A stretch of 64,000 nucleotides of DNA, taken from contig MTMF02000009.1 in NCBI GenBank assembly GCA_002011125.2, positions 1,766,989-1,830,988 of the forward strand, written 5' to 3'. This stretch comes from Candidatus Hydrothermarchaeum profundi. GTDB taxonomy: Archaea > Hydrothermarchaeota > Hydrothermarchaeia > Hydrothermarchaeales > Hydrothermarchaeaceae. The translations under genes were made by a program, and so were the position numbers. Within the stretch, counting starts at the first letter, position 1, and every line of letters begins with the position of its first letter. This document shows, in pieces, positions 5,687 to 41,393 of the stretch. A model generated the notes under the pieces. It was not told the origin of the DNA. It saw nothing but the letters and a program-made list of their open reading frames with translations, and searched no databases.

Positions 5687-8600
5687 TTATGAGGCAAGCC
5701 TTTTACTTATAATGAACCAGACCTTTTTTCGAAGCTTTCTATCCGGGATGTATCGCTCCAGGTAACTTTGGATATCTTTAACAATAATGCCTAGATCATT
5801 TTGATATTTTTTAACCGCTTCTATTACCCTCTTTTTATTCACGGGTACCTTTATACTTCTAGCACCGTTTATCACAGCGTAGTGTATGTACTCCGCCTTC
5901 TCTGGGTATTCGCAGTTGAATCTTTTACCTCCAATATTAACGTAGAAGCCGTTTAAGTCTGAGCCTGTCATTGAAGGGCCTCCGGGAACCTCTACTATCT
6001 CCACTAGAGTAGTATCGGGGATATACTCTTCTGGGAATTTCTTCAATCTGCTTATGTCTACCTCCCGCAGAATAGCTTCCGCTATATCCTCTGGTCTAGA
6101 TCCTCTGGATTTCTTTTTCCTAGATACGCTTTCCGCTTTCTCTATCCTTGATTTAACCAAGTTTACTACCGCTCTGTAAACCTCAAGCTGCTCTTCCTCG
6201 GTTAAACCTAATATTTCTCCCATAATGATTTTGTCAAGCTCTCTGCGATCGGGTTTCACCTTATCTAATGAAACATCTTCAGGTTTCTTTGCACCGATCT
6301 CATCGAAAACTGAACCAATCGGACGTTTGGAAAGCCTATCAAAGGCCTTTTTGAGTTTTTTGATATTTCTTTTTTGCAATTGAAATGGATCGAAAACTAG
6401 AATATCTTTTAATTCATAAACTTGAATTTTTAATGGACCGCCTCCACCGCCGTAGCTTCTAGTAAGAATCTCAATCAACATAAAATTATAACTTGAAGTT
6501 AAAATAGCTGAAAGAACTGCAGAGTTTCCTATTAGATATACATCAAAAAATTCACAATCAAAAAATACTCTCGACGAATTTAGTATCGAAAAAATCCGTT
6601 CTCTCAATATATAGGGCCAGCCAATTTTTCCAGGGACCCTTTCACCTAGGTCATACCATCTTTTTCTACTAGCACATGTAGGTCTTTCATGGAACCCTCT
6701 CTCTTCCCCCCATTCTATGTATTTTAAAACATTTGTTCCATTCAATTCCTCTCTATCCTTGTGGATCATCAGCACCCTATATTTTAAATCCCCTAGATCA
6801 ACAATAACTCCCTGACACTCCCTAGGGCTCTTAACAACATAGTTGGGAATCCAGTAAACGTAGCCGTCTTCTCTTAAAAAATCCTTTAATGATAGTCTAG
6901 AAGAATATTGAGATTTTTTGAAGTACTTGCCGCCCTTATCCCTCCAAGCATGACCTTGTACTGGGACTTCAAAGTCCTTCTCTATAGGGTGCATCCAGAA
7001 TTCTCTTTCGATACTCCACCTTGCAATATCTTCATCTATGAGATAGAAGAACTCGTTTGCACCGGTTGTAAACCCTCTACAAACTTCTGCGATTTCCTTT
7101 AAGGGAACCAGCAGGTCTCTACCTTTCTCGATAATCTTAAAGAAAATCGGTGGTGCTCTAACATACTTCCCCCATTTAGAGCCTACGTATCTGCCAGCCT
7201 CTTTGTCATAGCCCTCTTTCCAAAGCTCAGCCTGTTTTTTAGGGAATATCCTAATCTTCTCGTCTTCGTAAAATTCGGTCTTATTTTCAATGAGTTTTAT
7301 TAATTTCTCTATAGACCCGAATTTCTTTTCATCGTCATCGGTCTGAGGAATTATCTCGCTTAAAGGCTTGAGCAATTGAACAAATTTCACGACATTTTCT
7401 TCGCGCTCTTTCTTTCTTTTTTCATCCTCTTCTTGATTTTCTGAGTAACACCTTTCTAGGATAGTCACAGCAGTATTAACATCAGCCTCCTCAAACCACC
7501 GCTCTACCTTGGATTCTATAATGGCTACTATCTTTGTCTTTGTAAGGAAGAACTCCTGTAAGTACTTCCCATAATCTACATCAAGCCAGGAGTTAGAGGT
7601 TACATATCCAAATCTGCCCTCCTCCCTAAGGAACTTCAATCCATGAAGGAAGAAATAGGCATGGACACCTGCCCTCTTACCTAGGATTACATTCCTACCC
7701 CAATCCTGTTTTATAACAGCATTAAGGACTTTCTTATACTCTGGCTTATAGTCCTCAAGTTCTTCCTGCCTAGTATACGGAGGATTACCAACAACGGCAT
7801 CCATATACGGTACATATAGCTCCTTTTCACCCTTACTTAGTGTACTAATTCTCTCCCCAATATTAAGCCACATCCTAAGCTTCTTCTGGTCCTGTGTAGG
7901 ATAAATATGGAAGAAGTCCTTGCAGATAATCTGAGGATAATTCTCCACACTAGCTAAGTTACGAATCGCCAGACTAATAGTCGAGAGGTGGGCTGGGAAC
8001 TTAGCTATATCAATACCATACAGCTGCGAGAGAACCTCACTATGCGACTTAGTAGGATTAAAAGTCTTCAAGCGAGCATAGCTTCTAACAAGAAACGTTC
8101 CAGCACCACATCCAAAGTCTGCGACGATATCTCTCTCACTTTTAACACAGAAACCTATTATTAAGTCCACTAGGCCTGGACGTGTGAAATACTGCCCAAG
8201 CTTGTGCCTCTCGTTCACAGGTATCAAGCTGTCGAAAATCCTACCTATATCTTTCAAGCCTATTTGGGAGAAATCGTATTTTGAGAAACTGTTGATAAAA
8301 TGCCTAAAGTTAGGTATAATCTCGTCGGGTAGAGGAATGCCTTCAATAAAGTTAGTAGCAAAGACGGTCTCATAGTCGCCGGTAACTCTCTCCGCAATAT
8401 CGAAGTATTCCTGAAGCCTCCTCTTTAAAGCCTCACTACTGTCGATGCCCTCTGGGATAGTTATTTGTTTTAAATTATACTTAAGCCTTAGAGTGTTATA
8501 GAATAGAAGCTTGTCTAGGAGTAGGTAAAGGAATTGTCGAGCTATCCTTTCAAAATCTTCATCAGAGGAAGGAAGAGTCCATCCTTGCTCTATGAACCAG

Positions 8601-9259
8601 CCATTTAGCTGTGTCCTAAAGCCATTATCCTTCTCATACACCTCCATTAGATGAAGAGAAATCGGCATATCGAAGGCATCTACGGTAGAGTGGAGGCTTG
8701 CAATAAAAAACTCATCAACAGGCGGCTTAGAGATTTCGCTTTTACCCAGATATACCTCTTCTAGGTCTTTGAAGAATTTTCTCAGGAACTCTTTTATCTG
8801 CTTTTCAACTATTGGCTTATCTATCTCCTTGAGGTTTCTTATCTTAGTTACCTCATACCTCCTAACCCTCCTGTCAACTACGCTCCTAGCTTCTGGATCA
8901 AAGGTCTTCCATAGGAAGAGCTCATTAATATTCCAAGTACCAATATACTCTATCTGAGGACTTGCCATAGTAGCTTTGCGCTGAGCATCGTTCAAAATAT
9001 AATCATGAGTCCATCCCAGAGGAGGTTTAAGCTCGATTAGACATACCACTCTACGATTTTTCTTCCACCAAACGATAAAATCCGGAAAACTAATGCTACT
9101 ACCATCTGAAGTCTTAATCTCAATCTGCGAGTCTACATACTCTAAAGGAGAATCGATCTCTTTTAGTACTTCGCTCATCCAATTGGTAAGTCTCCTCCTA
9201 AGAGTGTCCTCAACATATCCAAAGCTTATAGATATATCATCTCTCTTGTGATATTTCAT
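5687..9259 (-). CDS. Single-chain restriction-modification enzyme: PD-(D/E)xK nuclease fused to N6-adenine methyltransferase
   Basis: This 1190-residue protein combines cutting and modification. Residues 59-78 form a PD-(D/E)xK core (PDFIVWWKKN...ELK: D60, E76, K78). The methyltransferase follows: LGQYFTRPGLVDLI (354-367), SAM motif I DFGCGAGTF (381-389) and catalytic NPPY (492-495), typical of gamma-class N6-adenine methylases of the Eco57I/type IIG/IIL kind. The second half has TaqI-like target-recognition features (CRGFTTGANEFFYL) and a coiled C-terminus. No separate R, M or S subunit flanks it, so it is probably self-sufficient. A PglX-like BREX/DISARM methylase was considered, but those lack an N-terminal nuclease and have other neighbours. 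Start ATG at 9259. Confidence 0.85.
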   Translation of the reverse strand: MKYHKRDDISISFGYVEDTLRRRLTNWMSEVLKEIDSPLEYVDSQIEIKTSDGSSISFPDFIVWWKKNRRVVCLIELKPPLGWTHDYILNDAQRKATMASPQIEYIGTWNINELFLWKTFDPEARSVVDRRVRRYEVTKIRNLKEIDKPIVEKQIKEFLRKFFKDLEEVYLGKSEISKPPVDEFFIASLHSTVDAFDMPISLHLMEVYEKDNGFRTQLNGWFIEQGWTLPSSDEDFERIARQFLYLLLDKLLFYNTLRLKYNLKQITIPEGIDSSEALKRRLQEYFDIAERVTGDYETVFATNFIEGIPLPDEIIPNFRHFINSFSKYDFSQIGLKDIGRIFDSLIPVNERHKLGQYFTRPGLVDLIIGFCVKSERDIVADFGCGAGTFLVRSYARLKTFNPTKSHSEVLSQLYGIDIAKFPAHLSTISLAIRNLASVENYPQIICKDFFHIYPTQDQKKLRMWLNIGERISTLSKGEKELYVPYMDAVVGNPPYTRQEELEDYKPEYKKVLNAVIKQDWGRNVILGKRAGVHAYFFLHGLKFLREEGRFGYVTSNSWLDVDYGKYLQEFFLTKTKIVAIIESKVERWFEEADVNTAVTILERCYSENQEEDEKRKKEREENVVKFVQLLKPLSEIIPQTDDDEKKFGSIEKLIKLIENKTEFYEDEKIRIFPKKQAELWKEGYDKEAGRYVGSKWGKYVRAPPIFFKIIEKGRDLLVPLKEIAEVCRGFTTGANEFFYLIDEDIARWSIEREFWMHPIEKDFEVPVQGHAWRDKGGKYFKKSQYSSRLSLKDFLREDGYVYWIPNYVVKSPRECQGVIVDLGDLKYRVLMIHKDREELNGTNVLKYIEWGEERGFHERPTCASRKRWYDLGERVPGKIGWPYILRERIFSILNSSRVFFDCEFFDVYLIGNSAVLSAILTSSYNFMLIEILTRSYGGGGGPLKIQVYELKDILVFDPFQLQKRNIKKLKKAFDRLSKRPIGSVFDEIGAKKPEDVSLDKVKPDRRELDKIIMGEILGLTEEEQLEVYRAVVNLVKSRIEKAESVSRKKKSRGSRPEDIAEAILREVDISRLKKFPEEYIPDTTLVEIVEVPGGPSMTGSDLNGFYVNIGGKRFNCEYPEKAEYIHYAVINGARSIKVPVNKKRVIEAVKKYQNDLGIIVKDIQSYLERYIPDRKLRKKVWFIISKRLAS

Positions 9260-37253: not shown

Positions 37254-38204
37254 ATGAAGCTTTCAGAACTCGGAGAGCGAGAAATAATAAAAATCCTCCG
37301 CAGAAACTTCGAAGAATGCGATAGAATGCTTGTGAGCATAGGGGACGATGCCAGCGTATATGACCTCGACGGCGAAAATTGCCTAGTGGTATCAATGGAT
37401 GTGATATCTCAAAAGGAACACATTCCGGTGGAGATGACGCCTAGACAGATAGGCATGTATGTGGTTAACGTTAATCTAAGCGACTTAGCTTCTATGGGTG
37501 CGCAGCCTATCGGGATTGTTACCTCCTTAGGCTTGCCAGGAGATTTGGAGGATATCTTCATAAAAGAGCTTTCTTCTGGAATAAACGAGGCATGCAGTAA
37601 GCATGGAATCTGTGTTCTAGGAGGCGACACAAAAGAAATGAGAGAGATATCCATCGCTTGTACTGCGTTAGGCATGGCTAAAAAGGGAAAGTTCCTAACT
37701 AGGAGTGGAGCAAGAGTGGGGGACCTAATATGTGTGACTGGTAAAATAGGTTCGGCTGCTGCTGGATTCTATTGCCTTATAGAGAATCTAAAGGAGGAGA
37801 GATTCATAAAGGCGGCATTAGAACCTAAAGCAAGAATAAGAGAAGGCTTACTCCTTGCCGGATATGCTAACTCCTGTATGGATATCTCAGACGGCCTTGC
37901 TTTTTCTCTCCACGAGATATCAAGAGCAAGTAAAGTTGGGTTCAAAGTATACGAGGAGAAGATTCCTATTGACCCTAGAATCCTAGATGTGGCTGAAAAG
38001 GCTGGCGTGTCATCTCGAGAGCTTATATTCCATAAGGGCGGAGATTACGAGCTTCTTTTCACAATTCCTCCAGAGAAACTCAAGGAGATAAAGCTAAATG
38101 TGAATATAATAGGTGAGGTTATCCCTGCGGGAGCTATTATTGTTAATCCGGAAGGTATGGAGGAAACTCTAAGCGATAGAGGATACGAATCATTCAAAAG
38201 TTAA
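37254..38204 (+). CDS. thiL: Thiamine-monophosphate kinase
   Basis: 316 residues. ThiL/PurM-fold landmarks are MKLSELGEREIIKILRR, SIGDDASVYDL (ATP/Mg), VSMDVISQKEHIP, DLASMGAQPIGIVTSLGLP, CVLGGDTKE, MDISDGLAFSLHEI and KGGDYELLFTIP. It phosphorylates thiamine monophosphate to the diphosphate cofactor. It is convergent with the coiled-coil protein gene, overlapping by four bases. No other thiamine gene is in the window. Confidence 0.94.
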   Translation: MKLSELGEREIIKILRRNFEECDRMLVSIGDDASVYDLDGENCLVVSMDVISQKEHIPVEMTPRQIGMYVVNVNLSDLASMGAQPIGIVTSLGLPGDLEDIFIKELSSGINEACSKHGICVLGGDTKEMREISIACTALGMAKKGKFLTRSGARVGDLICVTGKIGSAAAGFYCLIENLKEERFIKAALEPKARIREGLLLAGYANSCMDISDGLAFSLHEISRASKVGFKVYEEKIPIDPRILDVAEKAGVSSRELIFHKGGDYELLFTIPPEKLKEIKLNVNIIGEVIPAGAIIVNPEGMEETLSDRGYESFKS

Positions 38205-39691
38205 GCCAATGTTTTTAACGCCTTTTCCAAGCGAGTCTCTAGCTTCTCAAGCTTAACACTTAGCTCCTTCTCAAGCTTATCCAGCTCTACCTTCTTCTTC
38301 TCTATCTCCTTCTTCTTTGGGGGTATCTGATCTTCTAGCCAGATCTTCTTAAGGGACTCTCTCGTTAAGTCTATATAGGACTTGCAGTCAGCTAAAATGT
38401 CATTAAGCTTCTCGTATGCCTTCATCTCTTCTTCCATCATCTTAAGCTTACCGTTAAGCCTTCCTATCTGCGCTACAGCCTTAGACCTCTCACGAGAGTA
38501 CTCTTTCTTTAATACCGAGTACGTGCCCTCATCGATCTTCCCCGTATCCTTTTCCCTTTCAAGAGTATCTATGAGGGTATCGAAATTCTCTGCCTTGCTC
38601 TTCGCTGCGGCTAGCTTATCCTTCACTTCTTCCATTTGTTTCTTCTTCTCTGAGATAAAGTTCTCATCCGGCAACTTTACACCTGATGCAAGGGATTCCT
38701 CCTCTATTTTCTCGAGGGAGTTTATCAGCTCCGTCAGATACTCTTTTACTTTAGAGATAAGGAAAAGCTTGCTTGACTCTATGAAGCCCAGCTCCATCTC
38801 TTTGGAGAAGATCTCGCCTTCAATTGCCTTAAGCTTTTTCTCATATTCCGCCTGTACAGTTAAGAGGTCCTCATATTTTGATACAACGTTTTTCCTTTTC
38901 TCTATCTCAGTCTTTATTTCCTCTATCCTAGCCGCGCACTTGGCCACTTCCTTTTCATATTTCTGCTTAAGGCTCTCATAGGTAGCATCGTCAACAAGTC
39001 CATCATCATGGTTCTTCTCAAGCACTTTTAAGCTTGACTCCGCAACCTGCTTCTTCATGAGCTGACTGTTCAACGAGGAGTTAAGCGAGGGTATCTCGCC
39101 TTTTATGGCTTCAACCTTAGATATAAGAGAGGGATCTACGAATCTCCTTATCTCAAGCTCTTCGGGAATATAAATCTCTTCCAGTACCTCCTCCTTAGGA
39201 GCTGCTTCCTCTACTTTGACCTCTTCGACTTCGGGAGCCGCCTCCTCTATAGCCGGGGCTTCAGAAACTTCCTCTGGCACTTCTACTGATGGAGCCTCAA
39301 CTTCAGGAGCTGCTTCTTCAGGTGCTTCCACAGCTACTGCGGCCTCTTCACCTGCCTGATCCTGTTGCCTCAGCGCTTCTTCTATCTTTTCCCTCGTCAT
39401 ACCTTTCTCGTTAACCGGTATGCCCCTCTCCCTAGCAAGCTCCCTTAGCTCATTCCACTCCATTGAGGAATAGTCTACCGGCTTTTCCTCCTTCTCCTCC
39501 ATCTCTTTCTTTATCTCAGCGATCTTAGAATCAATCTCGGTGAGCTTTTCTTCATAATCAGCAACTGAGCTATTATAGTCCTCTTCACTTATCTCCCCCT
39601 CCTCAAAAGCTCTTTTGAGTTCATTCAAAGTAGCGGTGATAACCTCCCTTTCTACCTCCAATTCAGTTAATTTATCAGAATCTTCAGCCAT
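38201..39691 (-). CDS. Coiled-coil protein with three SHOCT-like helical modules and a SAP-like domain, partner candidate of MinD-like ATPase
   Basis: About 496 residues from ATG 39691 (a TTG at 39706 is also open). Three similar modules, L-x(n)-G-x-[IL]-x-[ED]-x-x-Y-x-x-[LV]-x-x-x-Y, occur at residues 23-50 (FEEGEISEEDYNSSVADY), 219-247 (DDGLVDDATYESLKQKY) and 373-399 (DTGKIDEGTYSVLKKEY). A SAP/Rho-N-like stretch lies at 78-107 (EWNELRELARERGIPVNEKG), then an acidic Pro/Ala/Glu/Val linker (113-175), and long coiled coils to the end. The ATPase gene just upstream (68 bases) ends in the same module. There is no signal peptide. It is probably a cytoplasmic scaffold, possibly nucleic-acid-binding through the SAP-like part. 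Function is unknown. Confidence 0.75.
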   Translation of the reverse strand: MAEDSDKLTELEVEREVITATLNELKRAFEEGEISEEDYNSSVADYEEKLTEIDSKIAEIKKEMEEKEEKPVDYSSMEWNELRELARERGIPVNEKGMTREKIEEALRQQDQAGEEAAVAVEAPEEAAPEVEAPSVEVPEEVSEAPAIEEAAPEVEEVKVEEAAPKEEVLEEIYIPEELEIRRFVDPSLISKVEAIKGEIPSLNSSLNSQLMKKQVAESSLKVLEKNHDDGLVDDATYESLKQKYEKEVAKCAARIEEIKTEIEKRKNVVSKYEDLLTVQAEYEKKLKAIEGEIFSKEMELGFIESSKLFLISKVKEYLTELINSLEKIEEESLASGVKLPDENFISEKKKQMEEVKDKLAAAKSKAENFDTLIDTLEREKDTGKIDEGTYSVLKKEYSRERSKAVAQIGRLNGKLKMMEEEMKAYEKLNDILADCKSYIDLTRESLKKIWLEDQIPPKKKEIEKKKVELDKLEKELSVKLEKLETRLEKALKTLA

Positions 39692-39759
39692 AGTATCGCA
39701 CCCCAAGGTTTGACCTTTATAAATTAAATTATAAGAATATAAATAGGTTGTGGTTTTTA

Positions 39760-40716
39760 TTATCGCTGAGCTTGAGAGTCCAGTTGCTCAAGTTCTTCCA
39801 AATATTTCCTTTTTAAGTCCTTATATACATCCTCGAGTATTAGCCCCCGCTCGTAGTACTCAAATAACCTATTAAGAGCCGTTTCTATAACCTTCTTCTT
39901 TGCAAGAATTTCATCAGATCCAACTTCAACTCTGATCTCTACTTCTTCCTCGCTTGGAGCTTTTATTTTAAGCTTTTTTAAGGCTTTAGAAGTTTTTTCA
40001 ATTATACCTTCACGGAGTTCCTCGCCTAATAAATCCGCCGCCAGTTTTTTGTAACTTTTACTCGCTGGAGAATTAGGTGAAAGCTGTAAAACGCTTACCC
40101 CCTTGTTCACTGCTTCTATAACCCTAGGATCATAAGGGATAACAGACGCCACGGGTTGAGCCAGAGTAGCCTCTACTGCGCTCTTCTCAAGCTCCCCTTT
40201 ACTTCCGCGCACTTTATTCAAGATCACCCTTATTTTGAGTTCATTTTCTCTCGCGGCTTTAATGAGCTTGTATACTGTTGTAACTGACAGACGATCTGGC
40301 TCTGTAATTACTAAAAGCTCATCTGACGCCTTCATCACGTCCTCGTCCACACCAGTACATGAGTCTATGAGGATAAAATCATATTTCTTTAAGAGAAACT
40401 GAATTTTCTCCCCCAGCTTAGCCTTACGACTAGTCGCTTCATTCATTAGGTACCCCAATATTAGGTCCATTTTTTCATTAAGCTGGTAGATCGCTTCTTC
40501 GATGGGAATTTTATCTTCAAGAGCATCTCGAAGAGTCAGAGGAGGATGAGGCAGATTAAAGCATAACCCAAGGTTTGGAGCCTCCAAATTTCCATCAACC
40601 GCTAGAATACGCCTGCCGAAAACTGAAGACATGGCAAAAGCCAGATTAGCTACGAAGACGGTTTTACCTGCTCCTCCTTTAGAGGATACAACCCCAACTA
40701 CCTTTCCCTCAAGCAT
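39760..40716 (-). CDS. MinD/ParA-family ATPase with C-terminal SHOCT-like module
   Basis: A 318-residue deviant Walker A ATPase: GVVSSKGGAGKTVFVANLAFAM (about residue 7) with signature Lys, Walker A' FILIDSCTGVDEDV and MinD-like LAVDGNLEAPNLGLCF. The normal ATPase ends near 245. A further helical tail, residues 276-318, reads RLFEYYERGLILEDVYKDLKRKYLEELEQLD, the same module repeated three times in the downstream coiled-coil protein. No MinD membrane-targeting helix is obvious. ParA/MinD proteins position cargo (septa, chromosomes, organelles) on surfaces; here the cargo or adaptor may be the coiled-coil protein. The target is unknown. Confidence 0.85.
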   Translation of the reverse strand: MLEGKVVGVVSSKGGAGKTVFVANLAFAMSSVFGRRILAVDGNLEAPNLGLCFNLPHPPLTLRDALEDKIPIEEAIYQLNEKMDLILGYLMNEATSRKAKLGEKIQFLLKKYDFILIDSCTGVDEDVMKASDELLVITEPDRLSVTTVYKLIKAARENELKIRVILNKVRGSKGELEKSAVEATLAQPVASVIPYDPRVIEAVNKGVSVLQLSPNSPASKSYKKLAADLLGEELREGIIEKTSKALKKLKIKAPSEEEVEIRVEVGSDEILAKKKVIETALNRLFEYYERGLILEDVYKDLKRKYLEELEQLDSQAQR

Positions 40717-40754
40717 TAAGCTTTTTATATGATACTATTAGGATATATAGGTTG

Positions 40755-41393
40755 ATGTATTGTAGAAGCTGCGGCGAGTATATTGAAGAAGGATGGAGAT
40801 ACTGCCCCAACTGCGGAGCGAAGATAGAGAAGGGAGTAGACATACTGGAGAGGTTCCCGAGCTTCTCACAGTTCGGCTCTCTCTTCAGAGACATAGAAGA
40901 AGAGTTCAGACGCATAGAGGAAATGTTCCGTAGCAGTTTTGGCGATTTTGAGAGGGAATTTGAGCCTCCAAGGGATCTATTTAAAAAGCCCTTCAAGGGA
41001 GGTGGAGTAAGTATTAGAATAACATCAGAGACGGGAAAAGAGCCAAAAATAGAGGTAAGGACCTTTGGTGACTATAAGGACCAAGAGCCCGAGATATTGA
41101 GAAGGTTCGGAATTGAGGAGCCGCGTAATAAGCGAGAGCGACCTAAGCCAAAGGTGACCGAAGAGCCTCAGACCGAAATGAAGAGGATAGAGGATAAGCT
41201 CATTGTTAAAATCAAGGTGCCGGGGGTTGAGTCCGAGGACGATGTAGAGCTGCGAAGAATGGAGGAATCTATTGAAGTTAAAGCATACGCTAAAGATAAA
41301 GCATATTTCACCCTTTTTACTGTGCCGCCAGGCTATAGGGTACTTTCAAAAAGGCTGGAGAATGGAGAGCTTATTTTAGAGTTAGGCGAGTAA
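40755..41393 (+). CDS. Zinc-ribbon protein with C-terminal Hsp20/p23-like domain
   Basis: 212 residues. Residues 1-26 form a zinc ribbon (MYCRSCGEYIEEGWRYCPNCGAKIEKG). The middle is charged and flexible (about 30-130). The C-terminus, from about 140, is alpha-crystallin/CS-like: EDKLIVKIKVPGVESEDDVELRRMEESIEVKAY...YFTLFTVPPGYRVLSKRLENGELILEL. Small heat-shock-like domains hold unfolded proteins or recruit partners. It is divergent from the MinD-like gene across only 38 bases, so the two share a promoter region. A leaderless start at ATG 40755 is likely. The fusion is uncommon. Confidence 0.8.
   Translation: MYCRSCGEYIEEGWRYCPNCGAKIEKGVDILERFPSFSQFGSLFRDIEEEFRRIEEMFRSSFGDFEREFEPPRDLFKKPFKGGGVSIRITSETGKEPKIEVRTFGDYKDQEPEILRRFGIEEPRNKRERPKPKVTEEPQTEMKRIEDKLIVKIKVPGVESEDDVELRRMEESIEVKAYAKDKAYFTLFTVPPGYRVLSKRLENGELILELGE

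Follow-up and report, generated by a model that had tools for sequence, protein, structure and literature searches.

Comparison of archaeal genomes indicates that the gene for a MinD/ParA-type ATPase and the gene for a coiled-coil protein directly behind it form a real, conserved and lineage-specific MinD/coiled-coil unit, which is narrow in its distribution. The pair lies in the window, i.e., the whole stretch of 64,000 nucleotides of Candidatus Hydrothermarchaeum profundi DNA analyzed here. Both genes are at the place given in the first-pass annotation. They are on the minus strand, with the ATPase gene upstream and the coiled-coil (partner) gene downstream, and the pair is flanked by plus-strand genes (thiL-like, 37254-38204; zinc-ribbon/Hsp20-like, 40752-41393). 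The 68-base spacer between the two genes contains a TATA-like stretch upstream of the partner gene; therefore, a single transcript is not assured, and the partner gene may have its own promoter. The ATG at position 39691 appears to be a more likely start of the partner than the listed TTG at 39706: in a relative, the protein begins at the equivalent residue. Elsewhere in the window, a 1190-aa minus-strand ORF (5687-9259) has an N-terminus that looks nuclease-like by eye. PADLOC gave no match, and a reading of the locus as a defence system was dropped.

Table 1. Features of the MinD/coiled-coil pair (positions within the window).
Feature	Position	Strand	Basis
MinD/ParA-type ATPase, 318 aa	39760..40716	minus	Pfam CbiA, TIGR01969, PDB 1g3q matches
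P-loop ATPase core, residues 1-231, deviant Walker A SSKGGAGKT	40024..40716	minus	
Amphipathic segment EELREGIIEKTSKALKKLKIK behind the core	39961..40023	minus	hydrophobic-moment scan
ATPase C-terminal hairpin, residues 269-318	39763..39912	minus	alignment, profile score, AlphaFold2
Family-specific coiled-coil partner, 496 aa from ATG	38201..39691	minus	confined to two genomes, one family
Partner hairpin module 1, residues 8-65	39497..39670	minus	alignment, model
SAP/HeH-like stretch DYSSMEWNELRELARERGIPVNEKGMTREKIEEAL	39371..39475	minus	homologous to this genome's uS3 tail
Acidic linker, net charge -23 over 68 residues	39152..39355	minus	predicted disordered
Partner hairpin module 2, residues 207-264	38900..39073	minus	alignment, model
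Partner hairpin module 3, residues 360-417	38441..38614	minus	alignment, model

The affiliation of the ATPase with the MinD/ParA family, proposed from the sequence in the first-pass annotation, was borne out by matches to Pfam CbiA (3.2e-17) and to an archaeal MinD of known structure (PDB 1g3q, 7.4e-31). Furthermore, residues 6-244 align with the archaeal MinD family TIGR01969 (minD_arch), at 158.6 bits and thus under its cut-off of 201.75, whereas the paralogues P0006 and P0007 exceed this cut-off (225.6 and 202.1 bits, respectively). The deviant Walker A motif (KGGxGK[T/S] with the signature lysine) is present near residues 11-19 and is kept in all four tailed MinD proteins considered here. 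The C-terminal tail of the window ATPase is missing from the further MinD proteins examined in the phylum. The segment behind the core has a moderate hydrophobic moment at residues 239-249 and low hydrophobicity, and would make a possible but weak membrane-targeting helix. Note that the core of the AlphaFold2 model of the ATPase has a mean pLDDT of 43; the tail hairpin alone was taken from this model.

The tail of the ATPase is a helix-hinge-helix element of ~50 aa that is conserved behind a hypervariable linker in the four tailed MinD proteins. Its match to three modules in the partner protein, claimed from the sequence alone, was confirmed by a gap-free alignment, by profile scores and by the hairpins modelled with AlphaFold2; all four segments quoted for the claim are present. 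The ten modules (four MinD tails and three copies in each of two partner proteins) fit a 59-column alignment without a single gap. A profile built from the partner modules only gives the tail 21.7 bits (17.1 bits for the whole ATPase ORF), a score reached by none of ~3000 plainly shuffled tails and none of ~3000 shuffled with the hydrophobic pattern preserved, and no other window ORF of at least 80 aa scores above 4.3 bits. Because the shuffled tails and the other ORFs score lower, the likeness exceeds chance and that of a generic coiled coil. The identity is modest, with 26-32% between the tail and the modules and 17-27% among the three partner modules. When the partner is modelled with AlphaFold2 from its single sequence, helix pairs form at all three modules (block pLDDT of 86-90 in module 3 and of at least 90 across the greater part of modules 1 and 2); in the ATPase tail, helices are modelled at residues 268-289 and 295-317 (block pLDDT 71-88 from residue 271).

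The modules had been likened to SHOCT hairpins, and this likeness stands: they are gap-free two-helix elements modelled as hairpins, and Pfam PF09851 matches the partner below its cut-off of 27 (15.5 bits in the protein scan, 20.7 in the genome search). The ATPase tail is not listed in the PF09851 results. Over the genome of the window, PF09851 finds three clear SHOCT genes, followed by the partner and a second tailed MinD, both sub-cut-off. SHOCT is known as a short, indel-free two-helix element, mostly C-terminal and found on many unrelated proteins; published tests for a role of it in oligomerisation had a negative outcome (PMC3581485). The window modules share with PF09851 the two helices, the short loop and the absence of indels, but besides scoring sub-cut-off they exceed it in length, with about 50-59 aa, and are present as internal copies in the partner. 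In the same genome, three consecutive small methionine/glycine-rich membrane proteins each end in a clear SHOCT (L182:2063-2983), and one protein of this kind is found in the relative G001 (L184).

As for the remainder of the partner, the acidic linker described in the first-pass annotation was found again, and residues 116-178 are modelled with a pLDDT under 50. The 'SAP-like domain' was not supported: SAP/HeH profiles gave no Pfam match in the partner at E up to 1, and the homologue of the stretch is the C-terminal extension of ribosomal protein uS3 of the same genome. This uS3 (C9, about 1411 kb; L017:778-1713) carries an acidic C-terminal extension with the SAP/HeH-like stretch at its very end, and it matches the partner (residues 52-123) at 48% identity. 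Matches to gas vesicle protein GvpG and to SMC were rejected, as they are weak, sub-threshold and of coiled-coil type. A search of solved structures with the partner gave nothing useful, and no named relatives of it were found in GTDB 220; among the matches listed for the MinD alignment in the GTDB 220 scan there are ordinary MinD proteins.

The partner is present in two of 297 archaeal genomes (two of the 23 of the phylum), both of one family, and in each it follows directly behind a tailed MinD. One additional match in the phylum (G007, E 4e-4) covers the first module alone. In the relative G001, the gene ahead of the partner encodes a MinD of 394 aa that has the same tail and a long proline-rich linker. 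The gene order is that of the window genome, and in both genomes about 70 bp separate the two genes. The G001 partner gene is split, its N-terminal part ending contig C29 and its C-terminal part beginning C181; the alignment leaves about a dozen residues between the halves. It is highly improbable that the two genes lie side by side by accident and that the coiled-coil protein has an unrelated structural role: the pair is known from two genomes only and the neighbours on both sides otherwise differ, but order, strand and short gap were kept despite the rearrangement of both flanks, which points to selection for the pair.

On the MinD tree, the window ATPase has a long branch and clusters with the MinD of the relative (96/70); tail-less MinD proteins of family f6 are the sister group of the two (99/95). 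In f6, the gene for this MinD has no coiled-coil neighbour; the trpA genes close to it are the same as those found ahead of the pair in G001. As judged from this tree and the gene neighbourhoods, tail and partner appear together, though this counts as one evolutionary event. A second tailed MinD exists in both genomes, with conserved neighbours encoding a PQQ-type propeller protein and a sensor kinase. The MinD tree does not support one common origin for the tail, since the two tailed groups are separate. In the window genome, the region of the second tailed MinD (C9, about 1555.4-1565.1 kb; L027:2403-12108) also contains a response regulator, and two membrane proteins encoded within 5 kb have module-like hairpins at their ends; module carriers thus cluster there again.

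The hairpin appears to be a common archaeal add-on rather than a code private to the pair. At E 1e-3, the module profile matches proteins in 77 of the 297 sampled archaeal genomes, chiefly membrane proteins predicted to have one or two transmembrane segments, alongside soluble coiled coils, a HerA-like ATPase, AAA ATPases, a CcmF-like protein and others. None of the carriers examined outside the family of the two genomes is a MinD; L069, L072 and L077, flagged by a MinD profile that includes the tail, appear to be short proteins with no ATPase core. Segments of 13 of 18 unrelated carriers outscore the window tail against the partner modules; as these carriers had been preselected with a profile trained on the tails and the partner modules, which biases the comparison towards them, the figure shows a lack of specificity and not an exact ranking. 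The partner modules are matched best by the tail of the MinD paralogue that is not adjacent to the partner gene (44 bits), and in a partner-based search of the own genome this other tail reaches E 1e-3, whereas that of the window ATPase falls short. A repeat private to the ATPase and its neighbour, with the tail specifically copying the partner, was therefore rejected. Two outcomes had been named in the first-pass annotation as telling against its proposal, a generic module and a failure of the genes to co-occur: the module is indeed generic, but across the archaeal genomes the two genes proved adjacent in both family members.

These data leave a serious competitor, which we regard as quite possible: both genes might have gained a generic SHOCT-like accessory independently, each hairpin having a separate target (a membrane complex, nucleic acid or another hairpin protein) with no docking between them. 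The occurrence of the module on varied proteins and the better fit of most unrelated carriers tested and of the non-adjacent paralogue to the partner modules are what this explanation would lead one to expect. On the other side, chance adjacency of two module genes is unlikely, because only about six genes of the own genome carry the module at E 1e-3; the corresponding probability of 1-2% is a rough estimate with ascertainment bias, as the profile was trained on the pair. Besides, one family has tail and partner jointly, and at the sister MinD there is neither.

We tentatively prefer to read the ATPase as a positioning protein of MinD/ParA type and the coiled-coil protein as its lineage-specific adaptor, with the chemosensory array as a possible cargo. 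In this mechanism, the ATP-bound ATPase dimer would bind the membrane (or the nucleoid), the hairpin on its flexible linker would dock onto the coiled-coil partner, and the partner would tether a cargo, which might, less certainly, be the chemosensory array. Its parts are not equally firm. ATPase and partner probably work together, and the chances that they act in positioning or tethering are about even. A chemosensory cargo is possible though somewhat unlikely, and docking of hairpin on hairpin, a guess consistent with the shared module, is rather doubtful.

Genes for ParA/MinD proteins are often found near the genes for their cargo (PMC10241942). A MinD with an adjoining coiled-coil protein gene, as in both genomes, and with che genes next to it in one relative fits this pattern. 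In known ParA/MinD partners, the ATPase is stimulated by an N-terminus that is disordered and positively charged (PMC10241942); the 30 N-terminal residues of the window partner are acidic and modelled as a helix, which speaks against a standard partner of this type. The hairpin common to both proteins would offer another way to dock, but the negative oligomerisation tests of SHOCT (PMC3581485) count against this, and the hairpin may equally well bind something else. In Haloferax, MinD proteins position chemosensory arrays and archaella (PMC11588486). MinD4 and MinD2 of this organism are likewise archaeal MinD paralogues that influence array and archaella position rather than division, but the accessible text describes neither a hairpin tail nor a coiled-coil partner for them (PMC11588486; the likeness is by description), and they affect archaella, whereas the window family has no archaellin match. 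ParC/ParP of Vibrio and the ParC/PpfA-type systems likewise combine an ATPase encoded near chemotaxis genes with an array-linking partner (PMC5706961, PMC10241942). ParP, however, possesses an MCP- and CheA-binding domain, whereas the search of the window partner for a CheW-like or other array-binding domain gave no match and its adjacency to che genes is seen in one genome.

A chemosensory cargo is suggested by G001, where the pair directly precedes cheW-cheY-cheB-cheA; as the partner gene is split across two contigs, the adjacency of partner and cheW depends on one inferred join. In the window genome, the che cluster (MCP-cheW-cheY-cheB-cheA-cheC-cheD) is located on another contig, away from the pair. 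CheW is found in 13 of the 23 genomes of the phylum, and since 11 of these do not possess the pair, chemotaxis does not depend on it; the link between the two comes from one genome. Both family members encode two long coiled-coil proteins upstream of cheR (L190:1-4197, L185:3-3147), the first of which has hairpin-like segments and is related to coiled-coil proteins from several small-genome archaea that are distant. The G001 copy of this block is located near cheA-cheC-cheD.

No archaellin match was found in either family member (note that G001 is only 62% complete), whereas each encodes a pilus-type platform that includes two T2SSF proteins. The lack of an archaellin match sets this family apart from most of the other genomes of the phylum. 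The presence of che genes without archaellin matches raises the question of what che controls in the family. It would also suit an alternative in which the pair positions or tethers a non-chemosensory cargo (a type IV-like pilus, the nucleoid or the division apparatus), with the SAP/HeH-like stretch of the partner contacting nucleic acid; the distance between pair and che cluster in the window genome points the same way. We consider this alternative unlikely, as the sole informative neighbour evidence points to che, and the SAP-like stretch matches no family, its relative being the tail of a ribosomal protein.

Coming back to the positioning ATPase with a coiled-coil adaptor, its most specific version, a new way of coupling an ATPase to its adaptor, is improbable: a MinD with a flexible tail would plug its SHOCT-like hairpin into a multivalent coiled-coil scaffold that bears the same hairpin, and would thereby position the chemosensory array in archaea with chemotaxis proteins but without archaellins. 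If this is true, the widespread SHOCT-like hairpin would gain a role as a homotypic docking plug.

To our knowledge, few partners have been identified for archaeal MinD proteins, and the conserved MinD/coiled-coil pair provides a concrete candidate for such a partner. If the hairpins of ATPase and partner dock onto each other, this would hint at a function for SHOCT-like modules, which are common in both archaea and bacteria.
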